25,786 nucleotides of DNA from a virus. Below the pieces are notes generated by a model that was not told the origin of the DNA, ran no database searches, and saw nothing but the letters and a program-made list of their open reading frames with translations. Where the stretch lies: the IMG/VR virus record IMGVR_UViG_3300002494_000002, positions 1-25,786 of that record; one strand, written 5' to 3'. Shown one piece after another: positions 3,082 through 25,786 of the stretch; within the stretch, counting starts at the first letter, position 1, and the number at the start of each line of letters is the position of its first letter. Both the position numbers and the translations under genes were made by a program.

Positions 3082-3600
3082 TTAATTGCCTCCATTTAAT
3101 TGATTTAATTTATTTGATACAACTGCATATCCTATTTGCGTTATACTATCTGCAAATCGTACAAACTCTTCAGCATAGAAAAGATTTAAATCTACACCTT
3201 GATTAATTATCTGTATAGAGCTAATTGGGACTGTAGTAATTTTCATTTTGAAACCAATCAGAAACTGACTTATGTCTGTTTTATATCCAAGAATGTAGTT
3301 TGGGTCGCTCCATACGGCAAACAGCGTTCCATCATCCAAGTAAAAACCAACTTCTCTAATCCAGTATTGTTGATTAGACTGCAATATTGCATGAAGTGTT
3401 ATTGATTTTTCATCTGTGTTTACTTCTGCAGATAAGATTGGAACTCTTTCTTTTTCGTTATACAGACTTGTCAAATTGTCGGATGGTGTATATGCTCCAT
3501 CGCCAACTCCCATGCTTGCAATACTAACCTTTAGTCCGTTTTGTTGTGCGTCTAATGCCGCTTTCATTCCAGCTTGTGTTATCGTTGCTGCTAATCCCAT
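3082..3600 (-). CDS. Tail fibre base / collar-type protein (P2 gpH N-terminal-like)
   Basis: The 172-residue protein begins ATITQAGMKAALDAQQNGLKVSIASMGVGDG, the pattern of the N-terminal domain that attaches P2 gpH-type fibres to the baseplate (T-x-x-G x11 G, then hydrophobic residues and VGDG). The central part contains YWIREVGFYLDDGTLFAVW, also typical of that domain. It stops at about the length of this single domain, so the stalk and tip appear to be supplied by the next two genes. A GGAGG ribosome site precedes the ATG. It directly follows the gpI-like gene, the same order as in P2. Confidence 0.8.
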   Translation of the reverse strand: MGLAATITQAGMKAALDAQQNGLKVSIASMGVGDGAYTPSDNLTSLYNEKERVPILSAEVNTDEKSITLHAILQSNQQYWIREVGFYLDDGTLFAVWSDPNYILGYKTDISQFLIGFKMKITTVPISSIQIINQGVDLNLFYAEEFVRFADSITQIGYAVVSNKLNQLNGGN

Positions 3601-3601
3601 T

Positions 3602-4270
3602 TTAAGCCTCCAAATAAACCTGAGTAATGCTAAAACAATTTACTCCTGCCATCATTCCAATATTCCAATCCATTCGATAGTTTGACTGTGTCTCTGCTTC
3701 AAATCTGCTTACTCCACAACCGCTTAGAATAGACGGTGTTGCTATTGTAGTGCTTGGTGTTGCTTCAAATATTATCCCAGCTAAATGGCTTCTTACATTT
3801 TTATATTCATTTATAAGTTCTTTCATATATTCTTGAGTTTGCTCACTAAATAGCTGATTTCCTACTCTTCTATCTATGCTCAGAACAACTGCAAACTCAT
3901 ATGGATTTAGCTGTCTAAATATCTGATTGTATGGAGATGGTATTGGCTTAAACCATTCGTATATTTTTGCATCTGTTGAGAATATCTGTAATACTTTCTT
4001 GATTGCGTATAATGTGCCTTTATATTTATGTAGCTCAATCGCATTTTTAATAAGATTTCTCTTTTCTTGTATATCTTGAGCTTTATCGTATCCTTCAATA
4101 TGAAATTGCCAGCCCAGTAAGTCCAGCAAATTTTCATCTTCTATTTCATCAATGCGTGGCAGTATTAAAACATTGATGATTTTGTTTTTAATATCTTCAA
4201 AGCTAACATCAAACGTATTAACTAAATGCTGTAGTTCTTTTATGCTCGATGGTGTCAACTCTTTAATCAT
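3602..4270 (-). CDS. I: Baseplate/tail protein I (P2 gpI family)
   Basis: The 222-residue protein carries the P2 gpI hallmark region: LILPRIDEIEDENLLDLLGWQFHIEGYD, then KRNLIKNAIELHKYKGTLYAIKKVL (residues about 36-92). In this family the protein is part of the baseplate, between gpJ and the fibre. Gene order J-I-fibre agrees. The start overlaps the end of the gpJ gene by eight bases, which suggests coupled translation; there is no clear ribosome site of its own. Confidence 0.88.
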   Translation of the reverse strand: MIKELTPSSIKELQHLVNTFDVSFEDIKNKIINVLILPRIDEIEDENLLDLLGWQFHIEGYDKAQDIQEKRNLIKNAIELHKYKGTLYAIKKVLQIFSTDAKIYEWFKPIPSPYNQIFRQLNPYEFAVVLSIDRRVGNQLFSEQTQEYMKELINEYKNVRSHLAGIIFEATPSTTIATPSILSGCGVSRFEAETQSNYRMDWNIGMMAGVNCFSITQVYLEA

Positions 4271-5360
4271 TTGTCAAGCCGCCATATATGATATTTATGT
4301 TATTTGCATATGCTATTTGCTCTATAGTTAGCTGTTGTTTGCTTGGAGCTGTTAAATCTATTGCATAAGCTCCAGCTTGTTTCACTCTTGATATTAACTG
4401 TTCTGGCAATACATCTCTTCCGATTTTACTTTTAGTCCAGTTAACAAAATCGTTAACTGCATTTTGAACTGCAGTTTGAATAATTGAGACTTTGGCTTCA
4501 TCTTTTTTGTTTACATAGTAAGTGAAATTAATATCGTAGTTGACAACTTGCGGAGCTGATACTATCACTTGGTCTGTTAGCGGTCTTACTTTTTCAGATG
4601 ATAGATAATTAGCAACTGCATTAATCATATCTGCATTTGGAATAGCGCCGTTTTTAAGAGTAAAAATGACCTTTACTTGCCCTGGATTTGGAGAATATAC
4701 TTCTACATCTTCAATGTCTTGATGTGCTGATAAAGTGTGATAAATGTAAGCTTGCCTGCTTCCTGCGTTGGAAAATCTTTCAATTGATAATCTTATTCGT
4801 TCTCTAAATCTCTCGTCATCTTCTAAATCTGTTCCATACATGCTTGTTGTAATGTTTTCTACTCTTGTGACATATGGCAGTGTATCAACAAGCTTGTTTA
4901 TTTGTCCTATACTAAAATTGTTTCCAGCAGAACCTGCAACATTGCAAACAGCTAAAACATCAACGAACAAACTCCCCGCTGGTATTTTAGCTTCCTGCAA
5001 AGTTGCAAAATAAATATTCCCGTCTGGTGTTGCTCTTGTTCCTGCTGGAATTACTATATCAAAACTAAGCGGCTGGTCTAAATAAAATCTTAAAGTCGTT
5101 TTGGAGGCTTTGGCTTGTAATCTTACAACTCCGTAAAATTCTGCTAATTTGTCTAAGTTTTTATCTGTTGCATAAGCTAATAAATTCTGTTTAGCTGTTT
5201 CATTGATTGCAATTGCAAGTAGAGTGCTTGCGTATGTTTGAAGATTGATTAATAGGCGCTCTGGGTCGGCTGGATATAGAGTCCTGCCTGTTATTTGCTG
5301 ATACGCATCTATCAATAATTTTTCATAATAAATTGCATCAGTATTTACGAATTCAGCCAT
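4263..5360 (-). CDS. J: Baseplate protein J (P2 gpJ / Mu gp47 family)
   Basis: The 365-residue protein matches the baseplate J family: N-terminal helical part with ADPERLLINLQTYASTLLAIAINETAKQNLLAYA, then PAGTRATPDGNIYFAT and the strongly typical DDERFRERIRLSIERFSNAGSRQAYIYH (about 180-210). Length is as expected. Gp47/gpJ forms the wedge that joins the baseplate hub to the fibres. The start overlaps the gpW-like gene by 16 bases and lacks a strong ribosome site, so translational coupling is likely. Confidence 0.92.
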   Translation of the reverse strand: MAEFVNTDAIYYEKLLIDAYQQITGRTLYPADPERLLINLQTYASTLLAIAINETAKQNLLAYATDKNLDKLAEFYGVVRLQAKASKTTLRFYLDQPLSFDIVIPAGTRATPDGNIYFATLQEAKIPAGSLFVDVLAVCNVAGSAGNNFSIGQINKLVDTLPYVTRVENITTSMYGTDLEDDERFRERIRLSIERFSNAGSRQAYIYHTLSAHQDIEDVEVYSPNPGQVKVIFTLKNGAIPNADMINAVANYLSSEKVRPLTDQVIVSAPQVVNYDINFTYYVNKKDEAKVSIIQTAVQNAVNDFVNWTKSKIGRDVLPEQLISRVKQAGAYAIDLTAPSKQQLTIEQIAYANNINIIYGGLTND

Positions 5361-5662: not shown

Positions 5663-5668
5663 ATTTTC

Positions 5669-5714
5669 ATTATCTATTGACAAACAAGATTAAACAAGCA
5701 ATGATTTCACAAGA
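5669..5714 (-). promoter_or_regulatory. Late-type promoter element S1 (baseplate-fibre-lysis unit)
   Basis: On the minus strand the core GTGAAATCATTGCTTGT (5710 to 5694) is followed 19 bases later by GATAAT (5674-5669) and six bases after that by the ATG of the gpW-like gene. The 37 bases from 5714 to 5678 are identical to 21668-21704 on the other strand. It lies in the only gap between the head gene and the baseplate genes. Confidence 0.75.
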
Positions 5715-7002
5715 CTTTAATTATTGCTGCGTAATGAGAAAGCTGATTTATGAGTTCATTTATTTGATTTTGCAATTTTGCAAACTCTCTTATCTCAAGT
5801 GTGTCATCGCTTGAAATTACGTATTTATTGCCTCTGACGAATATATAATCAGTGCTGCCGTCAAAGTCTCTTCTTATAAGTACCTGTTCTGGATTTTTGA
5901 TAATTTCTTTTGACATTCTTTTGTATTGCTCTATTGTTTCAGCTCCAACTTCATGTGCGTGCTCTTGAAAGTTTCTTAACAGGTTCTCTTTGGAGTATCT
6001 TGTCCAGCTACTGCCAAAATGTGTTTTTATTCTTTCACTAATTTCTTCTGGTTTTAGATTTCTGTATTCATCTTGTAATTGTTGCAATAGTGCAGATTGT
6101 TCTAAGCTTTTTGGCTGTGTTGCTGGGGTTATTGTGACAGGTAAAGGTCTTTCTATCTCTTCTTGATATGCATGTAAAACACATCGGCAATGCGGATGTG
6201 CTGGTGGCATTTTGCTGGGCAGGTTATCTGACGGCATTCTTTTAAGTGTATCTAAGTCAAAATTAGTTAAAAATGGCTTGACATTCGGCAGGCTTTCAGG
6301 GTCTGCTTCTATCAAATCTAATGTTCTTACTGCGTCAGCTGTTTTAAAAATCCTTCCATCCATGCTTCTACAGTAAGGACAGGTCAATCTGTCTCCGATT
6401 GCGTTCCATCTGTAATGGCTTATGCGTGCCTTCTGAAATGCTCTTATTCTTGCTGAGTTCTTTAAATGATTGTATGTAGTATCAATTATTTGTCTTGCTT
6501 TTGTCTGTGTTCTTTGTTGCAGATAGCTACCAAATCTATTCAGAAATTCTTGTATTCCTGATGTATCTTTTCCAATCGGATTTCCTTCTGTGAGATAGTA
6601 ATTATTCATCCAGTTAATGACTTCTTGCCTTAATCTTGCATCTCCTCTGAAAAACCTTCCAAGATAAAAATCTGCAAGACTTTCCGCATAACCGATTGTT
6701 CGAAGGTCTGGAGCTATAAACTCAAACTTAAACACCTTTGGGACTGCTTCTTTCTGTGCTTTTTCGTATGTCTTTTCAAATTCTTTTCTTAAATAGTCTT
6801 TTTCTTTAGTGCTTAATTTAACTTTCTCTTCAAGTTTTGAAATAATAAATCTTTGCAAGTCTTGAAACGATATGAAGTATTTAGTATACTTAAAAGCTTC
6901 TTTTAGTGATTCTTCTACTTTCTGCAAAATTGCAGGTAGTATTACATTAACAATTCTGTCTATATCCTGATTGCCTTCTGTGTCCCAGTCATACTCAGCC
7001 AT
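5707..7002 (-). CDS. F: Head morphogenesis protein (Mu gpF / SPP1 gp7-like)
   Basis: The 431-residue protein has a long helical N-terminal half. A Mu-F-type domain follows (about residues 190-280): FQKARISHYRWNAIGDRLTCPYCRSMDGRIF and PPAHPHCRCVLHAYQ. The Cys and His residues there (CPYC, HPHCRC) are typical of this family and may bind a metal. In Mu-like phages the protein is a minor capsid component next to the portal. The start overlaps the portal gene by eight bases. The last roughly 130 residues extend beyond the core domain and contain TDYIFVRGNKYVISSDDTLEIREF, which I do not recognise. Confidence 0.88.
   Translation of the reverse strand: MAEYDWDTEGNQDIDRIVNVILPAILQKVEESLKEAFKYTKYFISFQDLQRFIISKLEEKVKLSTKEKDYLRKEFEKTYEKAQKEAVPKVFKFEFIAPDLRTIGYAESLADFYLGRFFRGDARLRQEVINWMNNYYLTEGNPIGKDTSGIQEFLNRFGSYLQQRTQTKARQIIDTTYNHLKNSARIRAFQKARISHYRWNAIGDRLTCPYCRSMDGRIFKTADAVRTLDLIEADPESLPNVKPFLTNFDLDTLKRMPSDNLPSKMPPAHPHCRCVLHAYQEEIERPLPVTITPATQPKSLEQSALLQQLQDEYRNLKPEEISERIKTHFGSSWTRYSKENLLRNFQEHAHEVGAETIEQYKRMSKEIIKNPEQVLIRRDFDGSTDYIFVRGNKYVISSDDTLEIREFAKLQNQINELINQLSHYAAIIKVL
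5771..5782 (-). repeat. Dispersed inverted repeat TGCAAAATTGCA
   Basis: Exact copy on the minus strand, near the 3' end of the gpF-like gene, read as codons for AKLQ. Confidence 0.8.
6923..6934 (+). repeat. Dispersed inverted repeat TGCAAAATTGCA
   Basis: Exact copy, with flanks extending the dyad to CTGCAAAATTGCAG. It lies near the 5' end of the gpF-like gene and is read there as AILQ. Confidence 0.8.
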
Positions 7003-8227: not shown

Positions 8228-9524
8228 ATTTAAGCTCCTCTTTATGCTGATTTGCGAAAAAGATTGGTGTAATCTCTTTTATATCTTCTTGATTTGCTGC
8301 ATGAAGTGCTAAAGCCAAACTCCAAAAACGGTCTGCGTGAGAATCTTCAGTTTCTCCTTCATATCTGATATTCCCAGCCTTTGTTAGTGTTTTTTTGACT
8401 GAGTGCAAGTCTTCTATTAAATCTCTATCAGCTGGAATGCTTACAATCTTGTCTTGAAAAACTGCTTTAACTCTGCTTGCTAATTCATCTTTAACTTTAT
8501 TTGTGAAGTAAACGGGAATGACTTTAACATCTCCCCATTTTTTGACAAGTTCTTCAGCTATCTGCATTCCTATACCTGTCTCATCTATTGCTACTTTTCT
8601 TGCAAAATGACAGAGATAATCAATGATTTTAAACTGCTCTGAAAATGGCAGTTTTCTAAGTATCTCTTGCTTTCTTAAGTAATATCTACCAGCTACTTTC
8701 TCAAGAATAGATATAACTGTCAAATCATGTCTTCTTGCAATATCAACGCCCAGATAAATGTCTCCAGTTAAGTCTTTTATATCAGCTTCTATACCTTCCA
8801 CAGTGCAAGAATGCAAAATTTCGTATGACAGTAAAACACTTTCTTCATCCATAAACTCACACATATATTCCTGTTGCCAGATGTCCTGATTTGGAACGCC
8901 TTTCTGTAATTCTTCAATATCTATGTTTAAGCCCTGCTCTACTGCATCATAAATTGTTAACTTTTGCCTAAACCATAAATCGTTGTTCTCTGACATTTGC
9001 CAAAGATGTCCGAAGATATCAGATTTTGCTCTTGGAGTTGATATTACAACAAGCTTAAAGTCTTTGTTTCTTGTGATAGATGGAAATATAGCTTGATAGA
9101 CTTTATAGCCATCTTTAAAAAATGCTGCTTCTTCAAGTATTACATCACCAGTAAGACCTCTAACACCATCGGGGTTCGCTGGAAGTCCGATAATACGACT
9201 TCGATTTGGGAATTTAACCTCTAACACATTCGTTGTTGTATCTTCAAAAAAGCTAACATCTCCTTTGATTTTGCCAAGCTCTTTCAAAAAATCAACGTGT
9301 TTTTTGACCTTTTCCATAAGTTCTTTGGATTGCCTTTCCGTTGGTGATATGATAGCTACTAAGTGATTTTTTCTTTCGATAGCTCTCAAGACTGCAAAAA
9401 GAGAAACTACAAACGATTTACCTGTTTGTCTGCTCCACATAATGATTGAATACTTTTTTTCAAACATTTGAGCTAAAGCATATTGCTGATAAGACAAAAG
9501 GAGTTTGTTAATATTTAAGCTCAA
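8193..9524 (-). CDS. Large terminase subunit (Mu gp28-like)
   Basis: The 443-residue protein has both terminase domains. The ATPase has Walker A WSRQTGKS (about residues 30-37) and Walker B GDVILEEAAFF (around 130). The nuclease part has acidic residues in YLGVDIARRHD, VAIDETGIG and EDSHADRFWSLALA, as expected for an RNase H-fold nuclease. It packages DNA into the head. Translation probably begins at TTG 9524, which has AAGGAG seven bases upstream; that start lies inside the methylase gene by 17 bases. Confidence 0.92.
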   Translation of the reverse strand: MSLNINKLLLSYQQYALAQMFEKKYSIIMWSRQTGKSFVVSLFAVLRAIERKNHLVAIISPTERQSKELMEKVKKHVDFLKELGKIKGDVSFFEDTTTNVLEVKFPNRSRIIGLPANPDGVRGLTGDVILEEAAFFKDGYKVYQAIFPSITRNKDFKLVVISTPRAKSDIFGHLWQMSENNDLWFRQKLTIYDAVEQGLNIDIEELQKGVPNQDIWQQEYMCEFMDEESVLLSYEILHSCTVEGIEADIKDLTGDIYLGVDIARRHDLTVISILEKVAGRYYLRKQEILRKLPFSEQFKIIDYLCHFARKVAIDETGIGMQIAEELVKKWGDVKVIPVYFTNKVKDELASRVKAVFQDKIVSIPADRDLIEDLHSVKKTLTKAGNIRYEGETEDSHADRFWSLALALHAANQEDIKEITPIFFANQHKEELKYGYKAMDSKAV

Positions 9525-10359
9525 GTTTTAGCTCCTTTAATACTGTAGGGTCTGGCTCATAGTTAAACCATAATGCTTCTGTTGCTTGTGGTCTTGTTCT
9601 TGTTTTATTTTTATTATTCCTTGTTATTGCATATGAGCTTTTAGTAATTTGCCTCTCAACATAAGGATATCCCTTCAAAGTTTCATCGTAGAGTTCATTA
9701 TGATACCCTGAAAGCATCCATTTACCTTTTGTTTGTTTCAGAGTTCTTAGAAGTCTTTCGTGGTCTTCTTTTTTAAACGGAACATCGTAGTAATGTTCTG
9801 CTTTATAGTAAGGCGGATCACAATAGAAAAAAGTGTCCTCCGTATCCCAAGTTTTTATAATCTCTTCAAAATCTTTGCACTCTATGGTGACATACTTCAG
9901 TCTTTTTCTTATTGCTCGTAAATTTAAAATCTTTCTGGTTATCATGCGTGACCAAGGCTGTTTTATCGAATACCCAAAGCCACCCACACCGCTAAAATTA
10001 CCGTTGAGCACGTAATAAGTAGCTACTGCAAGGTCTACGTCTCCAAGCTCTGGAGATGTCGATGTTCTCAATTTTGCTTTTAGCTCCCTATAAATTTCTC
10101 TTGAATGAAGTAACCATTTAACCCTATTCCAGAACTCTTGAAAATGAAAGGATACGCAGTAATAAAGATTAGCTATTTTTTTATCTGCGTCGTTGATAAC
10201 TTCTATCTTGCTCAGCTCTTTAGCAAACAGTATTTTCCCAGACCCCACAAACGGCTCAACATATATTTTGTGAGGTGGTATAAGTTTTACAATTGTTTTA
10301 GACATAACATATTTACCCACAATATAAGTAAAGAAAGTAATCGGTTTTTTATACTCCAT
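9508..10359 (-). CDS. D12-class DNA adenine methyltransferase
   Basis: The 283-residue protein has the S-adenosylmethionine motif VEPFVGSGKILF (residues 34-45) and the catalytic motif DPPY (181-184, in FFYCDPPYY), in the order of Dam-like D12 N6-adenine methylases. The C-terminal part has WMLSGYHNE and a basic segment (RNNKNKTRTRPQATEALWFN) seen in phage members. It would methylate phage DNA, perhaps to evade host restriction, a job Mu gives to the unrelated mom. The gene sits between the terminase subunits, overlapping the small one by 11 bases and the large one by 17, so it is expressed with packaging. No partner restriction gene is seen. Target sequence unknown. Confidence 0.9.
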   Translation of the reverse strand: MEYKKPITFFTYIVGKYVMSKTIVKLIPPHKIYVEPFVGSGKILFAKELSKIEVINDADKKIANLYYCVSFHFQEFWNRVKWLLHSREIYRELKAKLRTSTSPELGDVDLAVATYYVLNGNFSGVGGFGYSIKQPWSRMITRKILNLRAIRKRLKYVTIECKDFEEIIKTWDTEDTFFYCDPPYYKAEHYYDVPFKKEDHERLLRTLKQTKGKWMLSGYHNELYDETLKGYPYVERQITKSSYAITRNNKNKTRTRPQATEALWFNYEPDPTVLKELKLELKY

Positions 10360-10846
10360 AGATTTCCTCTTTTATAAGTTTCAAGAATTCAGGGTCAATA
10401 TTTCTTTTCTTGCCTTCTTCTTCTATCTTTTCAGCTGCTTTCTGCAATTTTTCAGTAATGTGTTTTTCAAGAGACTGGCTCATTTGTGAAAGTTTATGGA
10501 CTGCTGTTATTAGCTGTTCTGGTTCTTCAAACTCAAAGCTGTCTACGTCTTTAGTGAATTCTAAGACTTTTTGAGTAAGCATTGCAACAAGAGAAGAGAG
10601 CATAAAAGAAGCTGGTTTATTTTGTGTTTGTTGAACTAAGATTTCTATCTTATCCCACCATTCATTGTACAGTTTTGCTGCTTCTGAATAATCCTTATAG
10701 GCTCTATGAATTGCAGATTTACTTATATCATATCCTTCTGTTCTCAAAATACTTTCTATGGTCTTAAAGTCTTTCTTTTCATTTTCATACAAATAGACAA
10801 TCTTTTGAATAATATCGTAAAGTTGTGCTTTCTTTCTTCTTGCCAT
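10349..10846 (-). CDS. Small terminase subunit (Mu gp27-like, DUF3486)
   Basis: The 165-residue protein begins MARRKKAQLYDIIQKIVYLYENEKKDFKTIESILRTEGYDISKSAIHRAYKDY. This is a helix-turn-helix opening typical of Mu gp27-type proteins (RRK...basic start, ISKSAIHR recognition region). Long helices follow. The small terminase recognises phage DNA for packaging. The ATG overlaps the stop of the gp26-like gene (TAATG) after a GGGAGG ribosome site, and the terminase-portal block follows after the methylase gene. Confidence 0.8.
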   Translation of the reverse strand: MARRKKAQLYDIIQKIVYLYENEKKDFKTIESILRTEGYDISKSAIHRAYKDYSEAAKLYNEWWDKIEILVQQTQNKPASFMLSSLVAMLTQKVLEFTKDVDSFEFEEPEQLITAVHKLSQMSQSLEKHITEKLQKAAEKIEEEGKKRNIDPEFLKLIKEEIYGV

Positions 10847-11739: not shown

Positions 11740-11781
11740 ATGATAAAGAGATGATGACGCTTAGACAAGCAATGATTTCAC
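11740..11781 (-). promoter_or_regulatory. Late-type promoter element S4 (packaging unit)
   Basis: On the minus strand the core GTGAAATCATTGCTTGT (11781 to 11765) is followed after 19 bases by TATCAT (11745-11740), a five-of-six match to the -10 consensus. The nuclease gene begins at 11707. No other promoter is evident in the 94-base gap, so this should drive the packaging operon. Confidence 0.72.
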
Positions 11782-12062: not shown

Positions 12063-12102
12063 ATTATAAGTCATAACTAAATATAACAAGCAAAGATTTC
12101 AC
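12063..12102 (-). promoter_or_regulatory. Late-type promoter element S2 (HTH gene)
   Basis: The core, here GTGAAATCTTTGCTTGT (one base off consensus, 12102 to 12086), is followed after 17 bases by a perfect TATAAT (12068-12063). The HTH gene starts 30 bases farther on at 12032. A copy of the dispersed inverted repeat lies just upstream (12113-12124). Confidence 0.72.
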
Positions 12103-12112: not shown

Positions 12113-12124
12113 TGCAATTTTGCA
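12113..12124 (-). repeat. Dispersed inverted repeat TGCAAAATTGCA
   Basis: Exact copy in non-coding DNA, ten bases upstream of promoter element S2. Confidence 0.8.
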
Positions 12125-12220: not shown

Positions 12221-12865
12221 CTATAACTTTTTCAATCTCAAATCTTTTTTGCTCTCAATCTTTATATATTCACAATAACTTCTTAATCTTGACAGTAATG
12301 GTTCAGGAAACTGACTAAAGCTCTCTTTACTGTTTGTTGTTATAAACAATGGAATGTTTTTGCTTTCTGCATAATAGACAATCTGAGTTATTAAATCAAC
12401 TTTTATGTCTTTCAAGTTTGGCAATAGGTCATCAATCAAATAAGCATCATATTCTTGAAACGTTTCAAATGCTTTGCTATCAAATAGAACTGTGCTAATA
12501 TATAAGGGGTTGTTTATTTTCCACCAATACAGCAATTTAGCAACCTTCCAAGTGCAGGCTGTGGACTTCCCTACGCCTGCCATTCCTTCCATTATTACGC
12601 TTCTTTTAATCTCTTTAATCTTTTTAATGCTTTCCGTTTCTTTTACCTGAAAAATTGCAGTCTCTATTAACTTCTCTGGAAATTTACCAGCAAGTAAGAT
12701 GTCTTTTATATGTTCTTTTGTTCTTGGTTTTAAATATCTTTTTACATTTGATATTGTATATTTTTGATATCCATCTGGATATACCCAGAAGCCACTGTCA
12801 TCTTCTATTATCCAGGCTTCTGGGAAATCTTTTTTTATATTTTCTAATGTTTTGTATACTCTCAT
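12221..12865 (-). CDS. DnaC/IstB-like AAA+ ATPase, likely helicase loader
   Basis: The 214-residue protein has Walker A GMAGVGKST (residues 94-102), Walker B YDAYLIDD (about 139-146), a sensor-1 strand IPLFITTNSKESF and an arginine-finger region LLSRLRSYCEYIKIE, in the order of DnaC/IstB ATPases. Residues 1-50 form a small separate domain that may contact the replicative helicase. It would load helicase on DNA left by transposition; Mu relies on host PriA and DnaC for this. It is the last gene of the early operon, directly after the SSB-tailed protein. The ATG has AAGGGGG upstream. Confidence 0.85.
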   Translation of the reverse strand: MRVYKTLENIKKDFPEAWIIEDDSGFWVYPDGYQKYTISNVKRYLKPRTKEHIKDILLAGKFPEKLIETAIFQVKETESIKKIKEIKRSVIMEGMAGVGKSTACTWKVAKLLYWWKINNPLYISTVLFDSKAFETFQEYDAYLIDDLLPNLKDIKVDLITQIVYYAESKNIPLFITTNSKESFSQFPEPLLSRLRSYCEYIKIESKKDLRLKKL

Positions 12866-12876: not shown

Positions 12877-13377
12877 TTAAAACGGAATATCTTCATCATC
12901 ATCTTCTTTAGCCCAGTTTTTAAGATAGTAATCCTTGCCTCTGCTGTTTTCTGGGCTTGCCCATTCTCTATTGTTTTGCTTGTTTTTTATGTTTGGTAGC
13001 TGATTTCTGAAGTTTAATAGTCCGTTCCAATCTTTTCTTTGCTCTTTGAAGCTTTTATAATCTTTCTTTAGCTGCTCGACATCTTCATTGTTTCTTTTGT
13101 ATATGTGTATTAGCTCTTTTAGATGCCTGGCTATTATTGCTTTATATTCAGTAGAGAATTTAAACATTTCAGGTGGCTTTTCATCCCACAGCTGTAAATA
13201 CCAGCCCATGAGATGCTGCAACTCTTTCCCGTTTTCTTTTTTGCTTTCTTCTTTTTCCATTTCCTCTTTCAGCTTTGCATCTATCTCAAGTAGAACATAT
13301 AAAGCATCTCTTTTCTTCTCTGCTAAAAGAAAAGAGATAGCCTTTTCGATCTTTCTTAAAAGCTGTTTGTTATTCAT
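12877..13377 (-). CDS. Helical protein with an SSB-type acidic C-terminal tail
   Basis: This 166-residue protein is not a recognised family. The first 60 residues are charged helices (KIEKAISFLLAEKKRDALYVLLEIDAKL). The middle has a tryptophan-rich segment (HLMGWYLQLWDEKPPEMFKF). The final residues, DDDEDIPF, reproduce the acidic D-x-I-P-F tip by which bacterial SSB recruits repair and replication proteins. No OB-fold is apparent, so it is probably not SSB itself. Placed between the zinc-finger protein and the helicase loader, with an ATGA overlap to the former, it may be a replisome organiser or restart factor. That role is inference. Confidence 0.75.
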   Translation of the reverse strand: MNNKQLLRKIEKAISFLLAEKKRDALYVLLEIDAKLKEEMEKEESKKENGKELQHLMGWYLQLWDEKPPEMFKFSTEYKAIIARHLKELIHIYKRNNEDVEQLKKDYKSFKEQRKDWNGLLNFRNQLPNIKNKQNNREWASPENSRGKDYYLKNWAKEDDDEDIPF

Positions 13378-14582: not shown

Positions 14583-14583
14583 C

Positions 14584-16018: not shown

Positions 16019-17008
16019 TTACCAGCCTCTTTTTGCTGTTTTAGATACCTCTATTGCTCTTTCTCTTGCTTCATCAAGCATTTTTAAAGTTTTTTCCCAA
16101 CCAATTTTTGTAACTGTTTGATATATCCATGTAAGAAGAGTATTTTTTAACTCTTCGTATAGCTCTTCCTCTGTTGCTGGTGGTGGTTCCTTTGGTGGTC
16201 TCCCACCGTGGAAACGTCCATTGTAGAAACCGTGTTTTTTAGCTATTTCTCTCAATTCTTCTAATTCTTCTTCAGTATCTTCTTTAAGAATATTCTCTAT
16301 ATAATTTTTTCTTGCAACATCGTCTGGTATTCCTCTGCTTCTTGACCATTCAAGGAATTTAATAAAAACGGGGTCATTTTCCAGTGAGGGATCGGGGGAA
16401 CCCGCATAATCTGCAATTTTTGCAGGTTGTGCGGGTTTTTCATCACTTTCCCATTTTTGAATTGTTCTTAGACCTATATTTAAAGCTTCAGCCACTTGCT
16501 CCTGTGTATACCCTTGCCTTCTCATTTCTATTGCCTTTTCTTTTATTTCATCAGGCTTTTCTCTTCTTTTCAATCCATCAACCCAGTAATACACGGTTCT
16601 TTCGCTTACACCAAAGATTTTTATAAGCTCTTGAATTTCCAGTCCTTCCATATATAGGTTTTGGCACAGAACTCTTTTCTCTTGCTTGGTTAGTGGTAGT
16701 CCGTGTCTATTTTTAATAATTGCTACTACTTTAGCCTCTAACATATCCTTAAGCTCTACTACTTCAGCTTTTATAGTTGTTCTGCCAAGTCTCTTCGTAG
16801 CCATTAGCCTATGCATCCCATCGATAAGCCAATACTCCTCATTATCTTTCTGCCATACTGTAATAGGCGGGAATTCAGAACCAAGTTCCATAGCTTCTTT
16901 GTATTCCTCCACCTTTTCTTCTACCGTGTGAGTTTCTACACGGGGAAGTAATCCTTGAATAGTTTCAATCTTGTTGACTTGCACTTCCTTAATTCCTAAC
17001 ACTTTCAT
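16019..17008 (-). CDS. ParB-like (ParB/Srx fold) DNA-binding protein
   Basis: The 329-residue protein begins with a ParB N-terminal-type domain: LGSEFPPITVWQKDNEEYWLIDGMHRLMATKRLG (about 42-75), where DGMHRLMA corresponds to the G-x-x-R nucleotide-binding box. Two helix-turn-helix segments follow, LIKIFGVSERTVYYWVDGL (near 130) and GYTQEQVAEALNIGLRTIQKW (near 165), then a helical C-terminal part. ParB-like proteins bind or spread on DNA from specific sites; some phage members act in transposition or regulation. It lies one base from the transposase gene in the same operon. Whether it reads the scattered TGCAA-NN-TTGCA repeat is a hypothesis. Confidence 0.82.
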   Translation of the reverse strand: MKVLGIKEVQVNKIETIQGLLPRVETHTVEEKVEEYKEAMELGSEFPPITVWQKDNEEYWLIDGMHRLMATKRLGRTTIKAEVVELKDMLEAKVVAIIKNRHGLPLTKQEKRVLCQNLYMEGLEIQELIKIFGVSERTVYYWVDGLKRREKPDEIKEKAIEMRRQGYTQEQVAEALNIGLRTIQKWESDEKPAQPAKIADYAGSPDPSLENDPVFIKFLEWSRSRGIPDDVARKNYIENILKEDTEEELEELREIAKKHGFYNGRFHGGRPPKEPPPATEEELYEELKNTLLTWIYQTVTKIGWEKTLKMLDEARERAIEVSKTAKRGW

Positions 17009-18813: not shown

Positions 18814-19077
18814 TTACACCTCCTTTTTAGAATTAGATTTAGATTTTGATTTTCTTTTATTTTCTTTATGTGATAAATTCTCAATTACATATAGATAGAT
18901 AAGATAAGGATCGTTGAGATACTCAGAGATTTTGTGTATAGTAGGAAGAGATACGCGCCTGCCAGCCAAAACATCTCTTAAATAAAGCTCTCTTACTTTA
19001 ATCTCTTTTGAGAGCTTGTTTATTGATACCCCCTTTTCTTCAATTTTTTTCTTTACATATTTTCTGAACTCTTCCAT
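18814..19077 (-). CDS. XRE-type HTH regulator (Cro/Ner-like or repressor)
   Basis: From the ATG at 19077 (GGGAG seven bases upstream) the product has 87 residues: an XRE helix-turn-helix (KGVSINKLSKEIKVRELYLRDVLAGRRVSLPTIHKISEYLN) and a Lys/Ser-rich tail (HKENKRKSKSKSNSKKEV). In-frame codons at 19098 and 19095 have no ribosome site. It is the first gene of the early operon, directly after a consensus promoter carrying two dyads, so it very probably binds these and controls its own operon. Because it is transcribed with the early genes, it resembles Cro or Ner more than a divergent lysogenic repressor; which of the two is unclear. Confidence 0.82.
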   Translation of the reverse strand: MEEFRKYVKKKIEEKGVSINKLSKEIKVRELYLRDVLAGRRVSLPTIHKISEYLNDPYLIYLYVIENLSHKENKRKSKSKSNSKKEV

Positions 19078-19126
19078 ATTCAATCTCCCTGCCATCATTA
19101 AATGGTTTAACTTTTTAGGTATAAAT

Positions 19127-19156
19127 ATTATAATTAGATTTCTGACTTTTTGTCAA
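19127..19156 (-). promoter_or_regulatory. Early promoter, consensus sigma70 type
   Basis: On the minus strand TTGACA (19156-19151) is followed by 18 bases and TATAAT (19132-19127). Both hexamers match consensus fully. It points at the early operon whose first gene starts at 19077. A dyad fills most of the spacer, so the promoter is strong but repressible. Confidence 0.85.
19133..19146. promoter_or_regulatory. Operator-like dyad O1 in the early promoter spacer
   Basis: ATTAGATTTCTGAC is an imperfect dyad related to O2 (12 of 14 bases identical). It fills most of the spacer between -35 and -10 of the early promoter. Bound protein would block RNA polymerase. The HTH product of the first early gene is the likely ligand. 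Confidence 0.65.
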
Positions 19157-19164
19157 TAGGTAAA

Positions 19165-19178
19165 GTTAGATTTCTAAC
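19165..19178. promoter_or_regulatory. Operator-like dyad O2 between divergent promoters
   Basis: GTTAGATTTCTAAC is an inverted repeat (GTTAGA / TCTAAC, two-base centre). Its centre is 32 bases, about three helical turns, from O1. It lies upstream of the early -35 and 11 bases before the S3 core, so it could affect both divergent units. Confidence 0.7.
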
Positions 19179-19189: not shown

Positions 19190-19232
19190 GTGAAATCATC
19201 GCTTGTTTAAAGCTTGCGTATGAAAATAAAAT
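19190..19232 (+). promoter_or_regulatory. Late-type promoter element S3 (tail-hub unit)
   Basis: The core, here GTGAAATCATCGCTTGT (one base off consensus, 19190-19206), is followed after 20 bases by TAAAAT (19227-19232). The ATG of the gpU-like gene begins six bases later, so its message may be leaderless. It points rightward, away from the early promoter. Confidence 0.72.
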
Positions 19233-19238: not shown

Positions 19239-19739
19239 ATGAAATATGCAAGCTTTGGCGATATTATCTTTCAAATATTTTCATATAGAGAACACAAAGA
19301 GAGTAATCAGTATGCAGTTGCAAAATTGCAGACAATAATCGCACCGAGTAGTATTCAATTTCTCGGCAATGAATTAATATCATTAGAACTTGCTGTTAAC
19401 TTTCATAATGCATTTTGTAATCCACTTGAAGAATATCAAAAACTCAAAGATATAGCCAAGCAAGGAGAACCACAAAAGCTTATTATTGCTGAAAAAATCA
19501 TCGGCGATTTTGTAATAGAAAGCATAGATGCAGAATATCAGCAAATAGACGCATACGGTCAGCCTGTTAACATAACGTTAAATGTCAAATTTACTGAATA
19601 CATCAAAAAAGAAATTCAGAAACGAAAAACAGCATCAAAATCAAAGAAAAAAGGTAAAGCTGTCAAAAAGAAAAATACTGGGCAACAAAATCAAAGCTTA
19701 CAGCAAAAAAACAAATACATAAACATGCTTGATAAGTGA
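19239..19739 (+). CDS. U: Tail protein U (P2 gpU family) with a basic tail
   Basis: The 166-residue protein resembles P2 gpU: GDIIFQIFSYREHKESNQYAVAKLQ near the start, then SIQFLGNELISLELAVNF, EEYQKLKDIAKQGEPQKLI and GDFVIESIDAEYQQIDAYGQPVNITLNVKFTEY (about 108-127 onward). gpU caps the tail tube in P2. The last roughly 40 residues are unusually Lys/Gln-rich (KRKTASKSKKKGKAVKKK and beyond) and lie outside the domain. The ATG follows element S3 with no visible ribosome site. The family call is good; the tail is of unknown purpose. Confidence 0.83.
   Translation: MKYASFGDIIFQIFSYREHKESNQYAVAKLQTIIAPSSIQFLGNELISLELAVNFHNAFCNPLEEYQKLKDIAKQGEPQKLIIAEKIIGDFVIESIDAEYQQIDAYGQPVNITLNVKFTEYIKKEIQKRKTASKSKKKGKAVKKKNTGQQNQSLQQKNKYINMLDK
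19319..19330 (+). repeat. Dispersed inverted repeat TGCAAAATTGCA
   Basis: Exact copy within the gpU-like gene, read as AKLQ. Confidence 0.8.
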
Positions 19740-19969: not shown

Positions 19970-20970
19970 GCTTTTATAAACCTTATCTATACATTGAAAT
20001 CAATAATAACAACGTATCGGCTTATATAACACCTTATCTAATTAGTTTTAGATATGTAGACAACGATGGACTTGATAAAGACGAAAGCGATGATGTAGAA
20101 ATTGAAGTTGAAGATAGCACTTACTTTTTTAGAGACAATCCACCATCCAGAGGCTCAAGTCTTAAAGTCCGTTTTGGATATGAAGAGACTGTCAGAGATG
20201 CTGGAACTTTCTTTATAGACAGCTACAACTTTAATTATAATCGTTCTGGAGCAACTTTCACGATTAAAGCTTTAGCTAAAGATGTAAAAGCATCATTTAG
20301 AACTCTTAAAACAACAGCATTTGAAAATACAACATTAAAGAAAATAGCTGAAGATATAGCAAATAGAAACGGTTATAAGTTATTTTTCGATGGTAATGAT
20401 ATAAACTTTCAAAGAATAGACCAGTACAAACAAAGAGATTTAGAATTTCTACAAAAGCTATGTAAAAGATACGGCTATAACTGCAAAATTGCAGATAAAA
20501 AGATTGTAATTAGAGATTTAGAAAAAAGCTTAAGCAGTTCTGGCATATATGTAATTACTCCTGACATAACAACAGATTTAGATATAGAAGTAAGCAGTCT
20601 TTATGCTGCCGATGTTGATGTTGTTTATTTAGACCCAAACAAAAAAGACAGCATATCAGATAACAAAAAGACAAAAATCAAAGCAAGCAATGACAAGCAA
20701 GTAGAACGTGTAAGAGTTGAAAACAAAAAACAAGCTGAAAAAGTAGCATCAGCACAGAAGACTTTAAATGAGATGAAAGAGTTAAAAGGCAGAATAGCAA
20801 CCATCGGAATTCCAAGCATATATGCATCTTCTCAAATAGAGCTAAAAGGTTTTGGAAAGTTTGACGGTCTTTATTATTGTTCTACTGTAATTCATGAAAT
20901 AAAAAGAGATGGCTATACAACAGAAATTGAATTTTTGAAAAATCCAAACCAAGCAGGTAAGAAGAAATGA
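19954..20970 (+). CDS. D: Baseplate hub protein D (P2 gpD / gp27-like)
   Basis: The 338-residue protein belongs to the gpD "late control" family, structurally the baseplate hub: N-terminal part SFRYVDNDGLDKDESDDVEIEVED, then GSSLKVRFGYEE, LKKIAEDIANRNGYKLFFDG and QRDLEFLQKLCKRYGYNCKIADKKIVI. A Lys-rich segment (230-270) and the closing ...STVIHEIKRDGYTTEIEFLKNP are also typical. In P2 the name refers to a genetic effect; the protein is structural. The 5' end overlaps gpX, and the 3' end overlaps the gpV-like gene by four bases (ATGA). Confidence 0.88.
   Translation: MADRLSFYKPYLYIEINNNNVSAYITPYLISFRYVDNDGLDKDESDDVEIEVEDSTYFFRDNPPSRGSSLKVRFGYEETVRDAGTFFIDSYNFNYNRSGATFTIKALAKDVKASFRTLKTTAFENTTLKKIAEDIANRNGYKLFFDGNDINFQRIDQYKQRDLEFLQKLCKRYGYNCKIADKKIVIRDLEKSLSSSGIYVITPDITTDLDIEVSSLYAADVDVVYLDPNKKDSISDNKKTKIKASNDKQVERVRVENKKQAEKVASAQKTLNEMKELKGRIATIGIPSIYASSQIELKGFGKFDGLYYCSTVIHEIKRDGYTTEIEFLKNPNQAGKKK
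20482..20493 (+). repeat. Dispersed inverted repeat TGCAAAATTGCA
   Basis: Exact copy with C/G flanks within the gpD gene, read as CKIA, a different codon frame from the other right-arm copies. Confidence 0.8.
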
Positions 20971-21665: not shown

Positions 21666-21667
21666 AC

Positions 21668-21713
21668 TCTTGTGAAATCATTGCTTGTTTAATCTTGTTT
21701 GTCATTTCAAAAT
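21668..21713 (+). promoter_or_regulatory. Late-type promoter element S5 (head unit)
   Basis: The core GTGAAATCATTGCTTGT (21672-21688) is followed after 19 bases by CAAAAT (21708-21713), the weakest -10 of the set. Positions 21668-21704 are identical to element S1. The protease gene starts at 21743 with its own AAGGAA ribosome site. Confidence 0.7.
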
Positions 21714-21742: not shown

Positions 21743-22450
21743 ATGATTACACTTAACACATTATTGACAACTGACAACTTACAAGAAGAACAAGACCATA
21801 TAGAAGTAAACGTAGTAGCTCTGTCTTCTACGTGTATTGCAAGAAGATACGGCAATCTCTGTTTTCCAGATGAGTTATTACAACAAAAAGCAGAAGATTT
21901 GATTGGTAAACCTGTTCTGTTGGATCATAAATGGGAAGTTGGGAGTGTGGTCGGTGTAGTTAAAGAGGCTTTTTATCAAGAAGGAAAAATAATTGCAAAA
22001 TTGCAGATAATTAGAGCTGGAAATGAAAAGCTGATAAATCTATTAAAAATGAACCCAAGACCAATTACAGACGTATCGGTTGGCATCACATTAGAGACTG
22101 AAAAATTAGAAGACAACAAATACATCGTTAAAAATATGTCATTCAAAGAGATTAGCTTTGTTTTCGAAGGAGCTGATAAGAACGCAAAAGTGTTATTTGA
22201 AGCTGACACAAAAGATTACAAAAACTGGTGGGATGACCCAGAGCTTAGAGATAAAGCACCAAGAGATTATTTCTTAGACCCATCAAACAGAACGTATCCT
22301 TACCGCACCTGGGAAGGCGAAATATCTTGCGATAGATTGCAAGCTGCAATGAGTTTAGCAAGTCTTCACGGACACAGCAGAGTATATACAAGAGCTAAAA
22401 ATATTTATGAAAATTACTGTCAAGGAGGTAAAAATGTTAGAAAAAATTGA
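21743..22450 (+). CDS. Prohead protease with C-terminal extension
   Basis: The 235-residue protein has a prohead-protease-type domain (about 20-155): LIGKPVLLDHKWEVGSVVGVV with the likely catalytic His, DVSVGITLE with the likely Ser, and NMSFKEISFVFEGADKNAKV. The C-terminal part (about 170-230, DPELRDKAPRDYFLDPSNRTYPYRTW...AAMSLASLHGHSRVYTRAKNIYEN) is a separate domain found in various phage proteins; its function is unknown. Position just before the scaffold and capsid genes supports the call. Its 3' end overlaps the scaffold gene by 17 bases. Confidence 0.8.
   Translation: MITLNTLLTTDNLQEEQDHIEVNVVALSSTCIARRYGNLCFPDELLQQKAEDLIGKPVLLDHKWEVGSVVGVVKEAFYQEGKIIAKLQIIRAGNEKLINLLKMNPRPITDVSVGITLETEKLEDNKYIVKNMSFKEISFVFEGADKNAKVLFEADTKDYKNWWDDPELRDKAPRDYFLDPSNRTYPYRTWEGEISCDRLQAAMSLASLHGHSRVYTRAKNIYENYCQGGKNVRKN
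21994..22005 (+). repeat. Dispersed inverted repeat TGCAAAATTGCA
   Basis: Exact copy within the protease gene, read as AKLQ. Confidence 0.8.
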
Positions 22451-22823
22451 GATGCTGTCAAAAGAAGAGTTAATTGATGCTGTGAGAGCATTAGAAGTAA
22501 AACTATCAGCGTTAGAAAAAGAGAATGAAGAACTAAAAGCACTTGCTGAGATTGGAAAGAAATATGAAGAGCATTTAAGAGCAGAAGCAACTAAGCTTGT
22601 GAAAATTGTTGAAGGTGAAAAGTCAGCTTATCTGAAATTGATTGAAAAAGCAGATGTAGATACTCTTGCTGAGATTTTAGAAGAATACAAAGCAAAAGCA
22701 ACTGAAAAATTGCAGCCTTCAAGCGTTCAAGCAAAAGTAGAAGAAGAAAGAATTGACTTAGAAAAAATGAGCTATAAAGATTTGGTTAAATTAGCTGAAA
22801 AATTCAAGAAGGAGGTCTTATAA
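22434..22823 (+). CDS. Probable capsid scaffolding protein
   Basis: From the ATG at 22434 (AAGGAGG upstream) the product has 129 residues, almost all charged helix: MLSKEELIDAVRALEVKLSALEKENEELKALAEIGKKYEEHL and more, ending YKDLVKLAEKFKKEVL. The coiled-coil character and location between protease and major capsid genes fit a scaffold that directs head assembly and is later cleaved. No sequence family is recognised. A farther upstream in-frame codon at 22407 would sit before the ribosome site. Confidence 0.72.
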   Translation: MLEKIEMLSKEELIDAVRALEVKLSALEKENEELKALAEIGKKYEEHLRAEATKLVKIVEGEKSAYLKLIEKADVDTLAEILEEYKAKATEKLQPSSVQAKVEEERIDLEKMSYKDLVKLAEKFKKEVL

Positions 22824-23723: not shown

Positions 23724-23736
23724 TAAGGAGTGGAGC

Positions 23737-23892
23737 ATGAAAGTATTTGTTAAAGAAGCTACTCAAGTGTGGATAAACGGAAAAGAGTATGCAGTAGAAG
23801 CTGGAGTTCAAGAAGTTGATGATAACATCGCACTAATTCTTATTGAAGCAAAATTAGCTGAAAAGGTAGAAGAAGATAAGAAGAAGAAATAA
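23737..23892 (+). CDS. Small protein next to the capsid gene
   Basis: From the ATG at 23737 (AAGGAG upstream) the product has 51 residues: KVFVKEATQVWINGKEYAVEAGVQEVDDNIALILIEAKLAEKVEEDKKKK. It is one small beta/helix unit with a basic tail. Its plan resembles the 25049-25246 product. Position after the capsid gene suggests a minor head or connector part; unproven. Its stop overlaps the next ATG (TAATG). Confidence 0.6.
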   Translation: MKVFVKEATQVWINGKEYAVEAGVQEVDDNIALILIEAKLAEKVEEDKKKK

Positions 23893-24200
23893 TGATCACG
23901 ATTGATGATTTAAAAGCTTTTGTAAATGATAGCTCTTTTCCCGACAACATTCTGCAAAATTGCATAGATATAGCTATTAATAGAGCTAAAAAGTTATTAA
24001 ACACAGACACACTACCAGCAACGCCAGAAGTGAGAAAAGCTCTACTACTTCTGGCTGCATCTGAACTTGCGACAAATGTCAATATGTACTGGAAAAGAGC
24101 TGAAAATCATCAAACAATGAACGTTAAAAATATGATTGCAGAAGCTGAAAGGCTTTTAAATCTGGTTCCAAGGGCAAGTGTAATATGGCAAAAGATTTAA
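23892..24200 (+). CDS. Head-tail connector-type protein
   Basis: The 102-residue protein is mostly helical: TIDDLKAFVNDSSFPDNILQNCIDIAINRAKKLLNTD...VRKALLLLAASELATNV. The opening pattern (DDLKAFVND...ILQNCIDIAINRAKKLL) is that of gp6-like/DUF4054-like connectors, which sit under the portal. The ATG overlaps the previous stop. Function follows from pattern and position after the capsid gene and before the gpG-like gene. Confidence 0.72.
   Translation: MITIDDLKAFVNDSSFPDNILQNCIDIAINRAKKLLNTDTLPATPEVRKALLLLAASELATNVNMYWKRAENHQTMNVKNMIAEAERLLNLVPRASVIWQKI
23953..23964 (+). repeat. Dispersed inverted repeat TGCAAAATTGCA
   Basis: Exact copy within the connector gene, read as LQNC, a third codon frame. 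Confidence 0.8.
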
Positions 24201-24625: not shown

Positions 24626-25049
24626 TGTATTAGAAAATCAGATATTGCAAGCTTTAGAAACAAATGGGATAAAAGCTCAAGGCTGGAGTGGTAAACCTGA
24701 AGAACTATTTGACAAGCCACGATATACTCCTGCTGCAAAAGTAATTATTGAAAATGCAAGCTTTGAGCCAGTCTCTTCTTACTCTTTTTATGTAGATTAC
24801 AGCTTTAGCGTGATTTTATTCTTCAAATCTCTAAGAGAGGAAGGGCAAGGAGCATATCCACTGATTACAAGCATCATTAACACGCTTGTCAAACAAACAC
24901 AGTATAACGCACTACCAACCAGAATTGAGCTTTTAGCCCATGAGAGTGGGGATTTTGTATATAGAATTAGTTTCAAAGCTAACGGTAGATATGTAGTTCC
25001 ACACCAAGAAGAGCCATTAACAACCTTAACAAATATGGAGGAAGTGTAA
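24618..25049 (+). CDS. Tail terminator-like protein (Mu gp37-like)
   Basis: The 143-residue protein (FDVLENQILQALETNGIKAQGWSGKPEELF...PAAKVIIENASFEP...DYSFSVILFFKSLREEGQGAYPLITSIINTLVKQ) fits the gp37/DUF1834 pattern. It stands between gpG and the sheath genes as in Mu. These proteins are thought to cap the tail near the head. Assignment is by order and general pattern. Confidence 0.72.
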   Translation: MFDVLENQILQALETNGIKAQGWSGKPEELFDKPRYTPAAKVIIENASFEPVSSYSFYVDYSFSVILFFKSLREEGQGAYPLITSIINTLVKQTQYNALPTRIELLAHESGDFVYRISFKANGRYVVPHQEEPLTTLTNMEEV

Positions 25050-25246
25050 TGAAGTTTAAAGTAAAAACAAGCTATCCAACAATCATTTTTATTGGCGGAA
25101 TTGATTACACACTTTACCCAGACCAAGAAATTGATTTACCAACAAACGACCATGAGCATATTCAAACGTTAATAGCTTTAAATTACTTAGAGCCAATTCA
25201 AGAAGTTAGAAAATCCAAAAAGGAGGTAAACGATAATGCCAGCTAA
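25049..25246 (+). CDS. Small protein before the tail sheath
   Basis: The 65-residue product (KFKVKTSYPTIIFIGGIDYTLYPDQEIDLPTNDHEHIQTLIALNYLEPI plus a charged tail) occupies the slot of Mu gp38. It looks like a small beta domain with a helix, similar in plan to the protein at 23737. Its ATG overlaps the stop of the previous gene and its end overlaps the sheath gene by 11 bases. Function unknown. Confidence 0.62.
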   Translation: MKFKVKTSYPTIIFIGGIDYTLYPDQEIDLPTNDHEHIQTLIALNYLEPIQEVRKSKKEVNDNAS

Positions 25247-25786
25247 TTACTTGCACGGCGTAGAAACAATTGAAATTTTGCAGGGACCCGTTCCAGTTAG
25301 AGAAGTTAAATCTGCTGTTGTTTTTTTGGTTGGAACAGCACCAGTTCATACAACAATTCCAAACGGAATGTCAGCTAACGATTGGTATAATCAAGTTGTT
25401 AATCAGCCAATCTTGATTTTAAGCAAAGATGATGCAGTTAAATATTTCGGAAATCCTACACCTAATTACACAATACCGTATGCACTGGACGCAATTTTTG
25501 ACCATGGCGGGACTACTTGCATAGTTGTTAACGTGTTTGACCCAAGAGTACACGCAACCACAGGCACACCAGACCCGACAAAAGTCCAAGCAAGCGACAT
25601 TATCGGCGGAGTTAATGCAACCACAGGACAAAGAACAGGATTAGAAATCATAGATGAGCTATATTCAAGATTTGGCTTTACAGCTAAGTTAATCCTTGCA
25701 CCTGTCTTTTGTGAATCTCCAAGCGTTATGTCTGCGATGATTTCAAAAGCAGAGACAAAAAGAGCAATAGCGCTTATTGATGCACC
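25236..25786 (+). CDS. L: Tail sheath protein, 3' part beyond window
   Basis: The first 183 residues are visible and the gene runs off the right edge. It opens YLHGVETIEILQGPVPVREVKSAVVFLVGTAP, the typical start of contractile sheath proteins (GVxxxE...G.rpi..v..av.gl.GtAp), and continues with LSKDDAVKYFG, YALDAIFDHGGTTCIVVNV and LILAPVF, all characteristic. Its presence proves a contractile (myovirus) tail. AGGAGG precedes the ATG at 25236. Confidence 0.92.
   Translation, partial: MPANYLHGVETIEILQGPVPVREVKSAVVFLVGTAPVHTTIPNGMSANDWYNQVVNQPILILSKDDAVKYFGNPTPNYTIPYALDAIFDHGGTTCIVVNVFDPRVHATTGTPDPTKVQASDIIGGVNATTGQRTGLEIIDELYSRFGFTAKLILAPVFCESPSVMSAMISKAETKRAIALIDA

Follow-up and report, generated by a model that had tools for sequence, protein, structure and literature searches.

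The described systems closest to the one reported here, a short palindrome (CTGCAANNTTGCAG) dispersed through the genes of a temperate Mu-like phage of Aquificota (the complete 25,786-base IMG/VR record IMGVR_UViG_3300002494_000002, or G000, the whole of which was analyzed and is called the window), involve DNA-binding proteins of plasmids, chromosomes, and other phages. On plasmid RK2, the ParB-family protein KorB silences at long range through OB operators, whose oligonucleotide core is TTTAGCGGCTAAA (PMC11790492). The phage system is similar in that a ParB-fold protein with a helix-turn-helix (HTH) domain accompanies palindromes of similar length, but its sites are mostly intragenic, occur about twice per 5 kb, and lie in a transposable phage, and its protein has two tandem HTHs and is encoded by a gene that contains a nested double palindrome. 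Several sites per element are likewise typical of KorB and OB. Noc nucleates on NBS sites and then associates with neighboring DNA (PMC8429893). It is the best structural match of the model of the phage protein, but here the element is a phage, the motif is a different one, and chromosomal sites are lacking, differences that hold for parS as well. In Bacillus, a parS copy lies inside the parB/spo0J gene.

Among phages, the stoperators of the Cluster A mycobacteriophages lack symmetry, point in the direction of transcription, and evolve in step with the immunity repressor (PMC6550527, PMC9283540). Like the sites considered here, they are short, numerous, spread over the whole genome of a temperate phage, mostly off promoters, and similar in number in each relative; the sites with a two-base gap (N2) in our phages, however, are palindromic rather than asymmetric and in one orientation, and their motif stays constant over at least seven types of CI operator. 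SPBRE, the repeated element of Bacillus prophage SPbeta that is read by the phage protein MrpR (PMC10516654), is also prophage-wide, and a phage protein is the predicted reader here too, but SPBRE is intergenic at promoters, whereas most copies of the palindrome are coding. Mu has a left end–enhancer–right end organization and a prophage-wide Mu domain (PMC3820752), as well as genome immunity (PMC7350765). The phage resembles Mu in being transposable and in the placement of the predicted full sites of its ParB-like protein, at each end and close to the early operator, where Mu has transposase and repressor sites, but neither a ParB-like protein nor a dispersed palindrome is known to be part of the Mu system as described. 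According to a 2020 paper, no virus of Aquificota had been isolated (PMC7689252). It is unusual for dispersed protein-binding sites to be preserved in coding sequence when synonymous divergence is large; here, such putative sites are countable and tied to a candidate protein.

A dispersed palindrome in a Mu-like phage

The window encodes a DDE transposase, an AAA ATPase in the position of MuB, a tandem-HTH ParB-like protein, RecT, HU, and a Cro-like regulator in addition to head and tail genes, and its terminase has relatives in transposable phages, such as B3. Its near relatives are viral contigs and its remoter ones prophages of Aquificota genomes; the motif-bearing family consists of Mu-like viruses infecting hot-spring bacteria.

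The exact 12-mer TGCAAAATTGCA occurs eight times in the window, at every position listed by a first-pass annotation made from the sequence alone, versus a mean of 0.01 in dinucleotide shuffles, none of which (0/100) reached eight copies. With the two central bases left free (TGCAANNTTGCA), 12 copies are present (Table 1), among them all four of the further TGCAA-N2-TTGCA forms that had been reported. When one mismatch is allowed, the number rises to 23 (2.8 expected), and the earlier list of such forms, as far as it went, had left out several (e.g., those at 6083 and 10443). A Markov-corrected count, on which the annotation had staked its claim, leaves the excess in place, with 0.03 to 0.07 copies of the 12-mer expected under models of orders 1 to 5. 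In a scan of all palindromes with half-lengths of 4 to 6 and gaps of 0 to 12, the N2 palindrome ranks at the top (P = 6e-20), the next unrelated one reaching ~1e-3. All but one of the 12 sites (the exception being that at 12113) are coding, and three frames are used; three copies (6923, 13462, and 20482) have the fully flanked form CTGCAAAATTGCAG. The reported variants with other spacers all exist, at 5208 (N0), 15724 (N1), and 16412 (N3), but only N3 exceeds chance across 17 phage records.

These are the motif-bearing records (at least 17 related phages) found among the viral-contig matches listed, in which the palindrome lies inside genes at roughly 1 per 2 kb: 155 N2 copies, or 0.27 to 0.58 per kb, of which 142 (~92%) are coding and 13 noncoding. 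Density is similar irrespective of the G+C content of the record (about 0.34 to 0.46) and alike in phage groups whose site positions differ; a test for regular spacing along the genome gave no departure from random. By gap length, the records hold 155 N2 and 37 N3 forms, versus two N0, one N1, and at most two of any other. Among 154 distinct sites, 64% have AA/TT at the center and 66% have C as the flanking base (G on the opposite side); beyond this base, N2 sites show neither further symmetry nor common flanks. The commonest one-mismatch variant in the family has a TGAAA half-site (60 of 159 one-mismatch forms).

The first-pass annotation also raised the possibility of a host-wide motif shared by the phage, which counts in host genomes and related phages refute. 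Each of 136 Aquificota genomes has zero to three copies of the exact 12-mer, except for the closed chromosome G036, whose nine copies all fall within 27 kb. Since a single 31-kb prophage, with terminal repeats of the transposase type at its borders, contains 15 of the 16 TGCAANNTTGCA sites of this chromosome (the remaining site being the only one in about 1.7 Mb), the motif belongs to the phage and not to the host. Viral loci with at least three sites, among the matches listed (by terminase homology or the 14-mer), all belong to this phage family (32/32). A HIP1-like iterated palindrome or a DNA uptake sequence was ruled out, there being no strong excess in 135 Aquificota genomes, and a pair of sites in G037 was rejected as a host regulon, its surroundings apparently being a degenerate prophage remnant beside tRNA-Ser. 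Within the phages, the early operon from cro to the transposase is depleted of sites, with 4 versus 20.1 expected (nine phages, kinship between them being ignored). G003 (L175/L176) appears to be a complete member of the window group, 35.4 kb long, with ends at 78 and 35332, terminal repeats TAATTTTTCAAAAAAATGCAACA, and a CI with an S24-type C terminus at 25316-25975.

Selection at the DNA level

Codon-wise alignments of orthologous genes paired the window-like phage group with the G036/G006-like one. In the 60 to 75% identity bin, where the residues spanning a site were all identical, the ten specified bases were kept in 60 of 63 comparisons (~95%), versus 7.8% for composition-matched background windows; without the identical-residue condition, the motif bases were kept in 49%, versus 2.2% of the background. 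These between-group comparisons are not mutually independent, but the contrast is nevertheless large. With motif bases kept so far above background where residues are identical, selection of the palindrome as DNA is strongly supported, as the first-pass annotation had argued from the use of three codon frames and a noncoding copy. Two thirds of the coding copies encode the easily tolerated peptide xA[K/I/T/N]LQ, as might be expected if the copies arose incidentally from protein sequence, codon usage, or the expansion of repeats, but shuffling synonymous codons with the proteins left intact yields a mean of 0.61 coding sites and a maximum of 3 (300 shuffles) versus the 11 observed, and the copies use three frames with flanks that are unlike except for C/G. 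From these shuffles and the between-group conservation, a protein or codon artifact was rejected, and a by-product origin is hardly credible.

The ParB-like protein as candidate reader

The dispersed palindromes are probably bound by a ParB/KorB/Noc-like protein with tandem HTHs that the phage itself encodes, a reading that we hold with moderate confidence. Of the roles listed by the first-pass annotation, this one is best supported, by a class of sites in the protein's own gene and by covariation between HTHs and sites, binding itself being a prediction; replication or packaging tags, also on that list, are a possible role. The protein matches the ParB-like PHROG 1033 (3e-17). Its predicted structure (mean pLDDT, 75.6) has its best Foldseek matches in Noc, ParB, and KorB (E values of 2e-07 to 5e-05), with Noc (7ng0, 7nfu, and 7ol9) matched best at 2e-07, and aligns with KorB (8qa8/8qa9) with a VIA Z of 12.3 over 136 residues at 3.5 Å. 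The model thus places the protein in the ParB/KorB/Noc superfamily, with an HTH domain following a CTPase/sulfiredoxin-like fold of the ParB N-terminal type. In the invariant D63-G64-x-H66-R67-xx-A70, the G and R positions of the canonical CTP-binding motif are kept, and GERR itself is not.

The N3 sites form a separate class, in which each site is the core of a larger palindrome whose outer arms vary. In the window, this double palindrome is the 39-bp AACCCGCATAATCTGCAATTTTTGCAGGTTGTGCGGGTT within the ParB-like gene, whose 18-nucleotide arms are 89% complementary. Of 11 motif phages, 10 have a single exact TGCAA-N3-TTGCA in the ParB-like gene, and the other has a one-mismatch form. The gene copy directly follows the codons of the second HTH (HTH2) and is translated as PAKIAD or LQKLQ, depending on the phage; the nonmotif L036 has no TGCAA-N3-TTGCA in its ParB-like gene. 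Further N3 sites are clustered just inside the phage ends (259, 322, and 368, and 35067 and 35108, in G003; also in G004 and G036) and in the CI-cro region (25267 in G003 and 8750 in G146). Relatives that lack the motif have a double palindrome at the same position in the gene, with a core that tracks the recognition helix of the first HTH (HTH1): [SA][EQ]RTxY[YN]W goes with TGCAA, SERTIYR(W/Y) with TGACA, SDRTIRRW with GGACA, SLRTVYNW with TGAAA, and xxxYVxKV with TTACC/TTACT (TTACY). A clear palindrome was not found in the ParB-like gene of G015. In Mantel tests, HTH1 correlates with the core (r = 0.82, P = 0.0002) and not with the arms (r = −0.09), and within the TGCAA class (class 1), HTH2 correlates with the arms (r = 0.64, P = 0.0002) and not with the core (r = −0.05). 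Dispersed sites are present in the tested phages with a TGCAA-type HTH1 and in 0 of 7 others.

In the mechanism that we propose, HTH1 would read the TGCAA half-site, and HTH2 may read the outer arms of full TGCAA-N3-TTGCA sites, which lie a short way in from the phage ends, within the gene of the protein itself, and, in some phages, at the early promoter. The core-only N2 sites, scattered over late, structural, and replication genes, would be bound via HTH1 and most likely enable the protein to cover the prophage in its entirety, in the manner of KorB on RK2, from its OB sites, and of Noc on the Bacillus chromosome. The bound protein would then repress or block transcription outside the early operon, hold the element as one domain safe from self-integration, or both. 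We infer binding, clamp behavior, and physiological role alike, the last of which, by analogy, may be gene silencing or prophage domain formation and self-immunity. More tentatively, and as a proposal that may well not hold, the protein could be an architectural and self-recognition factor of Mu-like phages, with HTH1 reading the core and HTH2 the variable arms of a nested site present at both ends, the early operator, and its own gene; in one HTH class, the phage would have scattered core-only sites through its genes, labeling the entire element as self (for domain formation, silencing, or protection from self-integration), and variation in the family would amount to a readable HTH-to-site specificity code. 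If the ParB-like protein is the reader, the family offers a natural panel of some twenty HTH/site pairs, a chromosome-partition fold is employed by a transposable Aquificota phage, and there is a testable model of how transposable phages organize, silence, or protect their own genomes, a question partly open for Mu.

Several observations weigh against assigning the sites to this protein. Its ParB_N Pfam score (23.5 bits) is under the cutoff of 26.3. The covariation of HTH1 with the core largely parallels the phylogeny of the ParB N domain (r = 0.81), and HTH2 is physically linked to the gene-internal site. A pure-phylogeny account is countered by L036, since its ParB-like protein is nearer to that of G036 (55%, versus 50% for the window protein), yet L036 lacks the dispersed motif, has TGACA as its core, and carries an arginine at position 7 of the helix. 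Other HTH classes have full nested sites but no dispersed core-only ones; dispersal is therefore no general property of this protein family but an extra step in one class. The dispersed sites are N2 without arms and the gene and end sites N3 with arms, a difference of one base pair in spacing, and in G036 and G004, the arms of the end sites are unlike those within the ParB gene of the same phage. Finally, in four phages (G036, L024, L079, and L140; CI helix SLRTIQYW), the CI-type operators are themselves TGCAANNTTGCR, which is unlikely to coincide with the dispersed motif by chance, so that a CI-like protein can apparently read the motif.

Alternative readers of the sites

The last observation favors an alternative in which the sites are dispersed, stoperator-like operators of CI/Cro immunity, through which an intragenically bound repressor blocks transcription in the lysogen. 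The TGCAANNTTGCR pair lies exactly where other phages have their CI operators, the CI N terminus matches the 434 repressor (weakly), and the sites avoid the early operon. The AT-rich center and 14-bp length of the dispersed sites also resemble operators of the 434 type. However, each phage's early promoter has its own pair of CI-type operators, of at least seven types with one or two copies apiece (GTTAGANNTCTAAC in the window and G003, ATCCCANNTGGGAT in L017/L025, ACGATNATCGT in L012, ACAC-N6-GTGT in L023, and others), and TGCAANNTTGCA stays dispersed under every one: the at least six other types (GTTAGA, ATCCCA, GGGA, ACAC, ACGAT, etc.) are confined to the early promoter, and alongside them the dispersed motif keeps both its sequence and its density. 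Moreover, helix 3 of Cro is not conserved, and the sites, in contrast to the stoperators of Cluster A (PMC6550527), are palindromes without orientation. Because the operators change and the motif does not, CI operators were set aside as a general explanation, and the immunity reading is unlikely, if not negligibly so; it is a possibility that the SLRTIQYW-type CI took over preexisting sites, enabling it to act on any phage of the family.

It is quite unlikely that another DNA-binding protein of the phage reads the sites, the most plausible being the product of 13374-13886 in the replication/transposition module, which combines a zinc finger with a Myb-like HTH. Motif phages with sequence for the early module have its gene, which was not found in the L036 stretch examined, and the Myb-like helix is conserved between the window and G036, but the recognition helix is strongly altered in G150, where the motif is still there, and homologues occur in prophages lacking the motif (G044, G054, G096, G087, G089, and G140). 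No observation favors HU, which the annotation had put forward as a binder: it was not found in the motif-bearing G036, and some HU-bearing relatives are without the motif. A host factor (a nucleoid, defense, or repair protein) that the phage exploits or mimics is very unlikely: motif phages appear to be confined to certain Aquificota hosts, but the single host site outside the prophage of G036 is near chance by a rough estimate, and among the matches listed no dense locus was found in an unrelated virus. End sites of a MuA-type transposase were rejected, as the motif differs from the terminal repeats of G036 (TTTGACAAAAAAATGGGACAC) and G003 (TTTTTCAAAAAAATGCAACA).

TABLE 1 Features of the window and tRNA-adjacent starts of related prophages
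Feature	Position	Strand	Context
Dispersed site TGCAATATTGCA	3380-3391		Coding, HAILQ
Dispersed site TGCAACATTGCA	4935-4946		Coding, CNVA
Dispersed site TGCAAAGTTGCA	4996-5007		Coding, FATLQ; this FATLQ-encoding site shared by several records from each of the two phage groups
Dispersed site, exact 12-mer	5771-5782	−	Coding, FAKLQ
Dispersed site CTGCAAAATTGCAG	6923-6934		Coding, PAILQ
Dispersed site, exact 12-mer	12113-12124		Intergenic; adjoins terminator-like hairpin and repeated promoter-like element (12086-12102)
Dispersed site CTGCAAAATTGCAG	13462-13473		Coding, TAILQ
Dispersed site TGCAAGTTTGCA	13958-13969		Coding, LQTCK
Dispersed site, exact 12-mer	19319-19330		Coding, VAKLQ
Dispersed site CTGCAAAATTGCAG	20482-20493		Coding, CKIA
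Dispersed site, exact 12-mer	21994-22005		Coding, IAKLQ
Dispersed site, exact 12-mer	23953-23964		Coding, LQNC
One-mismatch form TGCAATTTTTCA	10443-10454		Reverse complement of TGAAAAATTGCA; absent from first-pass list
One-mismatch form TGAAAAATTGCA	12648-12659		
One-mismatch form TGCAAAATTTCA	15092-15103		
One-mismatch form TGAAAAATTGCA	22703-22714		
ParB/KorB/Noc-like protein gene, tandem HTH	16019-17008	−	Proposed binder of TGCAA half-sites; HTH1 SERTVYYW
Double palindrome in ParB-like gene	16399-16437		Outer arms AACCCGCA/TGCGGGTT; inner core TGCAA-N3-TTGCA (16412-16424)
AAA ATPase adjoining transposase	13893-14597	−	MuB-like position; AAA_22/MuB-like
DDE transposase, Mu-like phage	14584-16017	−	PHROG transposase; end repeats in relatives differ from dispersed motif
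Small Cro/Ner-like XRE regulator	18814-19098	−	
Early-promoter operator pair, window CI type GTTAGANNTCTAAC	19133-19178		Different motif, not dispersed
17-bp element GTGAAATCNNNGCTTGT	5694-5710	−	
17-bp element GTGAAATCNNNGCTTGT	11765-11781	−	
17-bp element GTGAAATCNNNGCTTGT	12086-12102	−	
17-bp element GTGAAATCNNNGCTTGT	19190-19206	+	
17-bp element GTGAAATCNNNGCTTGT	21672-21688	+	
tRNA-adjacent prophage starts	G036 C1:818405-818503 (L042 tRNA-Ser 4406-4493); L177:12-98; L045:9650-9739; L046:9572-9663		Relatives: L232:15464-15547, L229:9984-10070

Neighboring genes, integration sites, and other repeats

The five copies of the 17-bp element GTGAAATCNNNGCTTGT lie at or near gene starts, oriented with transcription, and the element recurs in window-like relatives; it is probably a phage promoter or activator site. 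The gene at 12877-13377 encodes a conserved 166-amino-acid protein whose C terminus, DDDEDIPF, resembles the C-terminal tip of single-stranded DNA-binding protein (SSB), and adjoins that of an ATPase (12221-12865) that appears DnaC-like and has no match in Pfam or PHROG; recruitment of host replication proteins is a possible function. A DNA adenine methyltransferase (PHROG 56) is encoded at 9508-10359, a gene that most close relatives are without.

Prophages of the Mu-like family start directly beside tRNA genes: tRNA-Ser(tga) for G036, G004, and remnants in G037 and G062. A tRNA-Leu adjoins the G054 prophage and lies near that of G044, and a tRNA-Trp is found ~4 kb from the outermost dispersed motif in G096 and G087. 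This adjacency suggests targeted integration next to tRNA genes by a phage with a DDE transposase.

Related prophages carry other repeats. An asymmetric exact 15-mer, TAGGACAGGTTGGAC, occurs in six to eight copies in L234/L235 (G096), L236/L237 (G087), and L240/L241 (G089), mostly intergenic and mostly on the strand opposite the following gene, and possibly represents activator, promoter, or stoperator-like sites. In the G140 prophage (L238/L239, C2:19000-46300), the palindrome GGAGCTCC is enriched about seven-fold over the host, with about 34 copies in 27 kb versus 327 in the whole 1.8-Mb genome, and is raised in the host too. An excess of GAGCTTGA in G044 and G054 was discounted, since it looks like codon usage and occurs outside the prophage as well. 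Just outside the prophage in L231, around C1:74900-75500 of G044, are about ten CRISPR-like TCCAC-N3-GTGGA repeats with 66-bp spacing.

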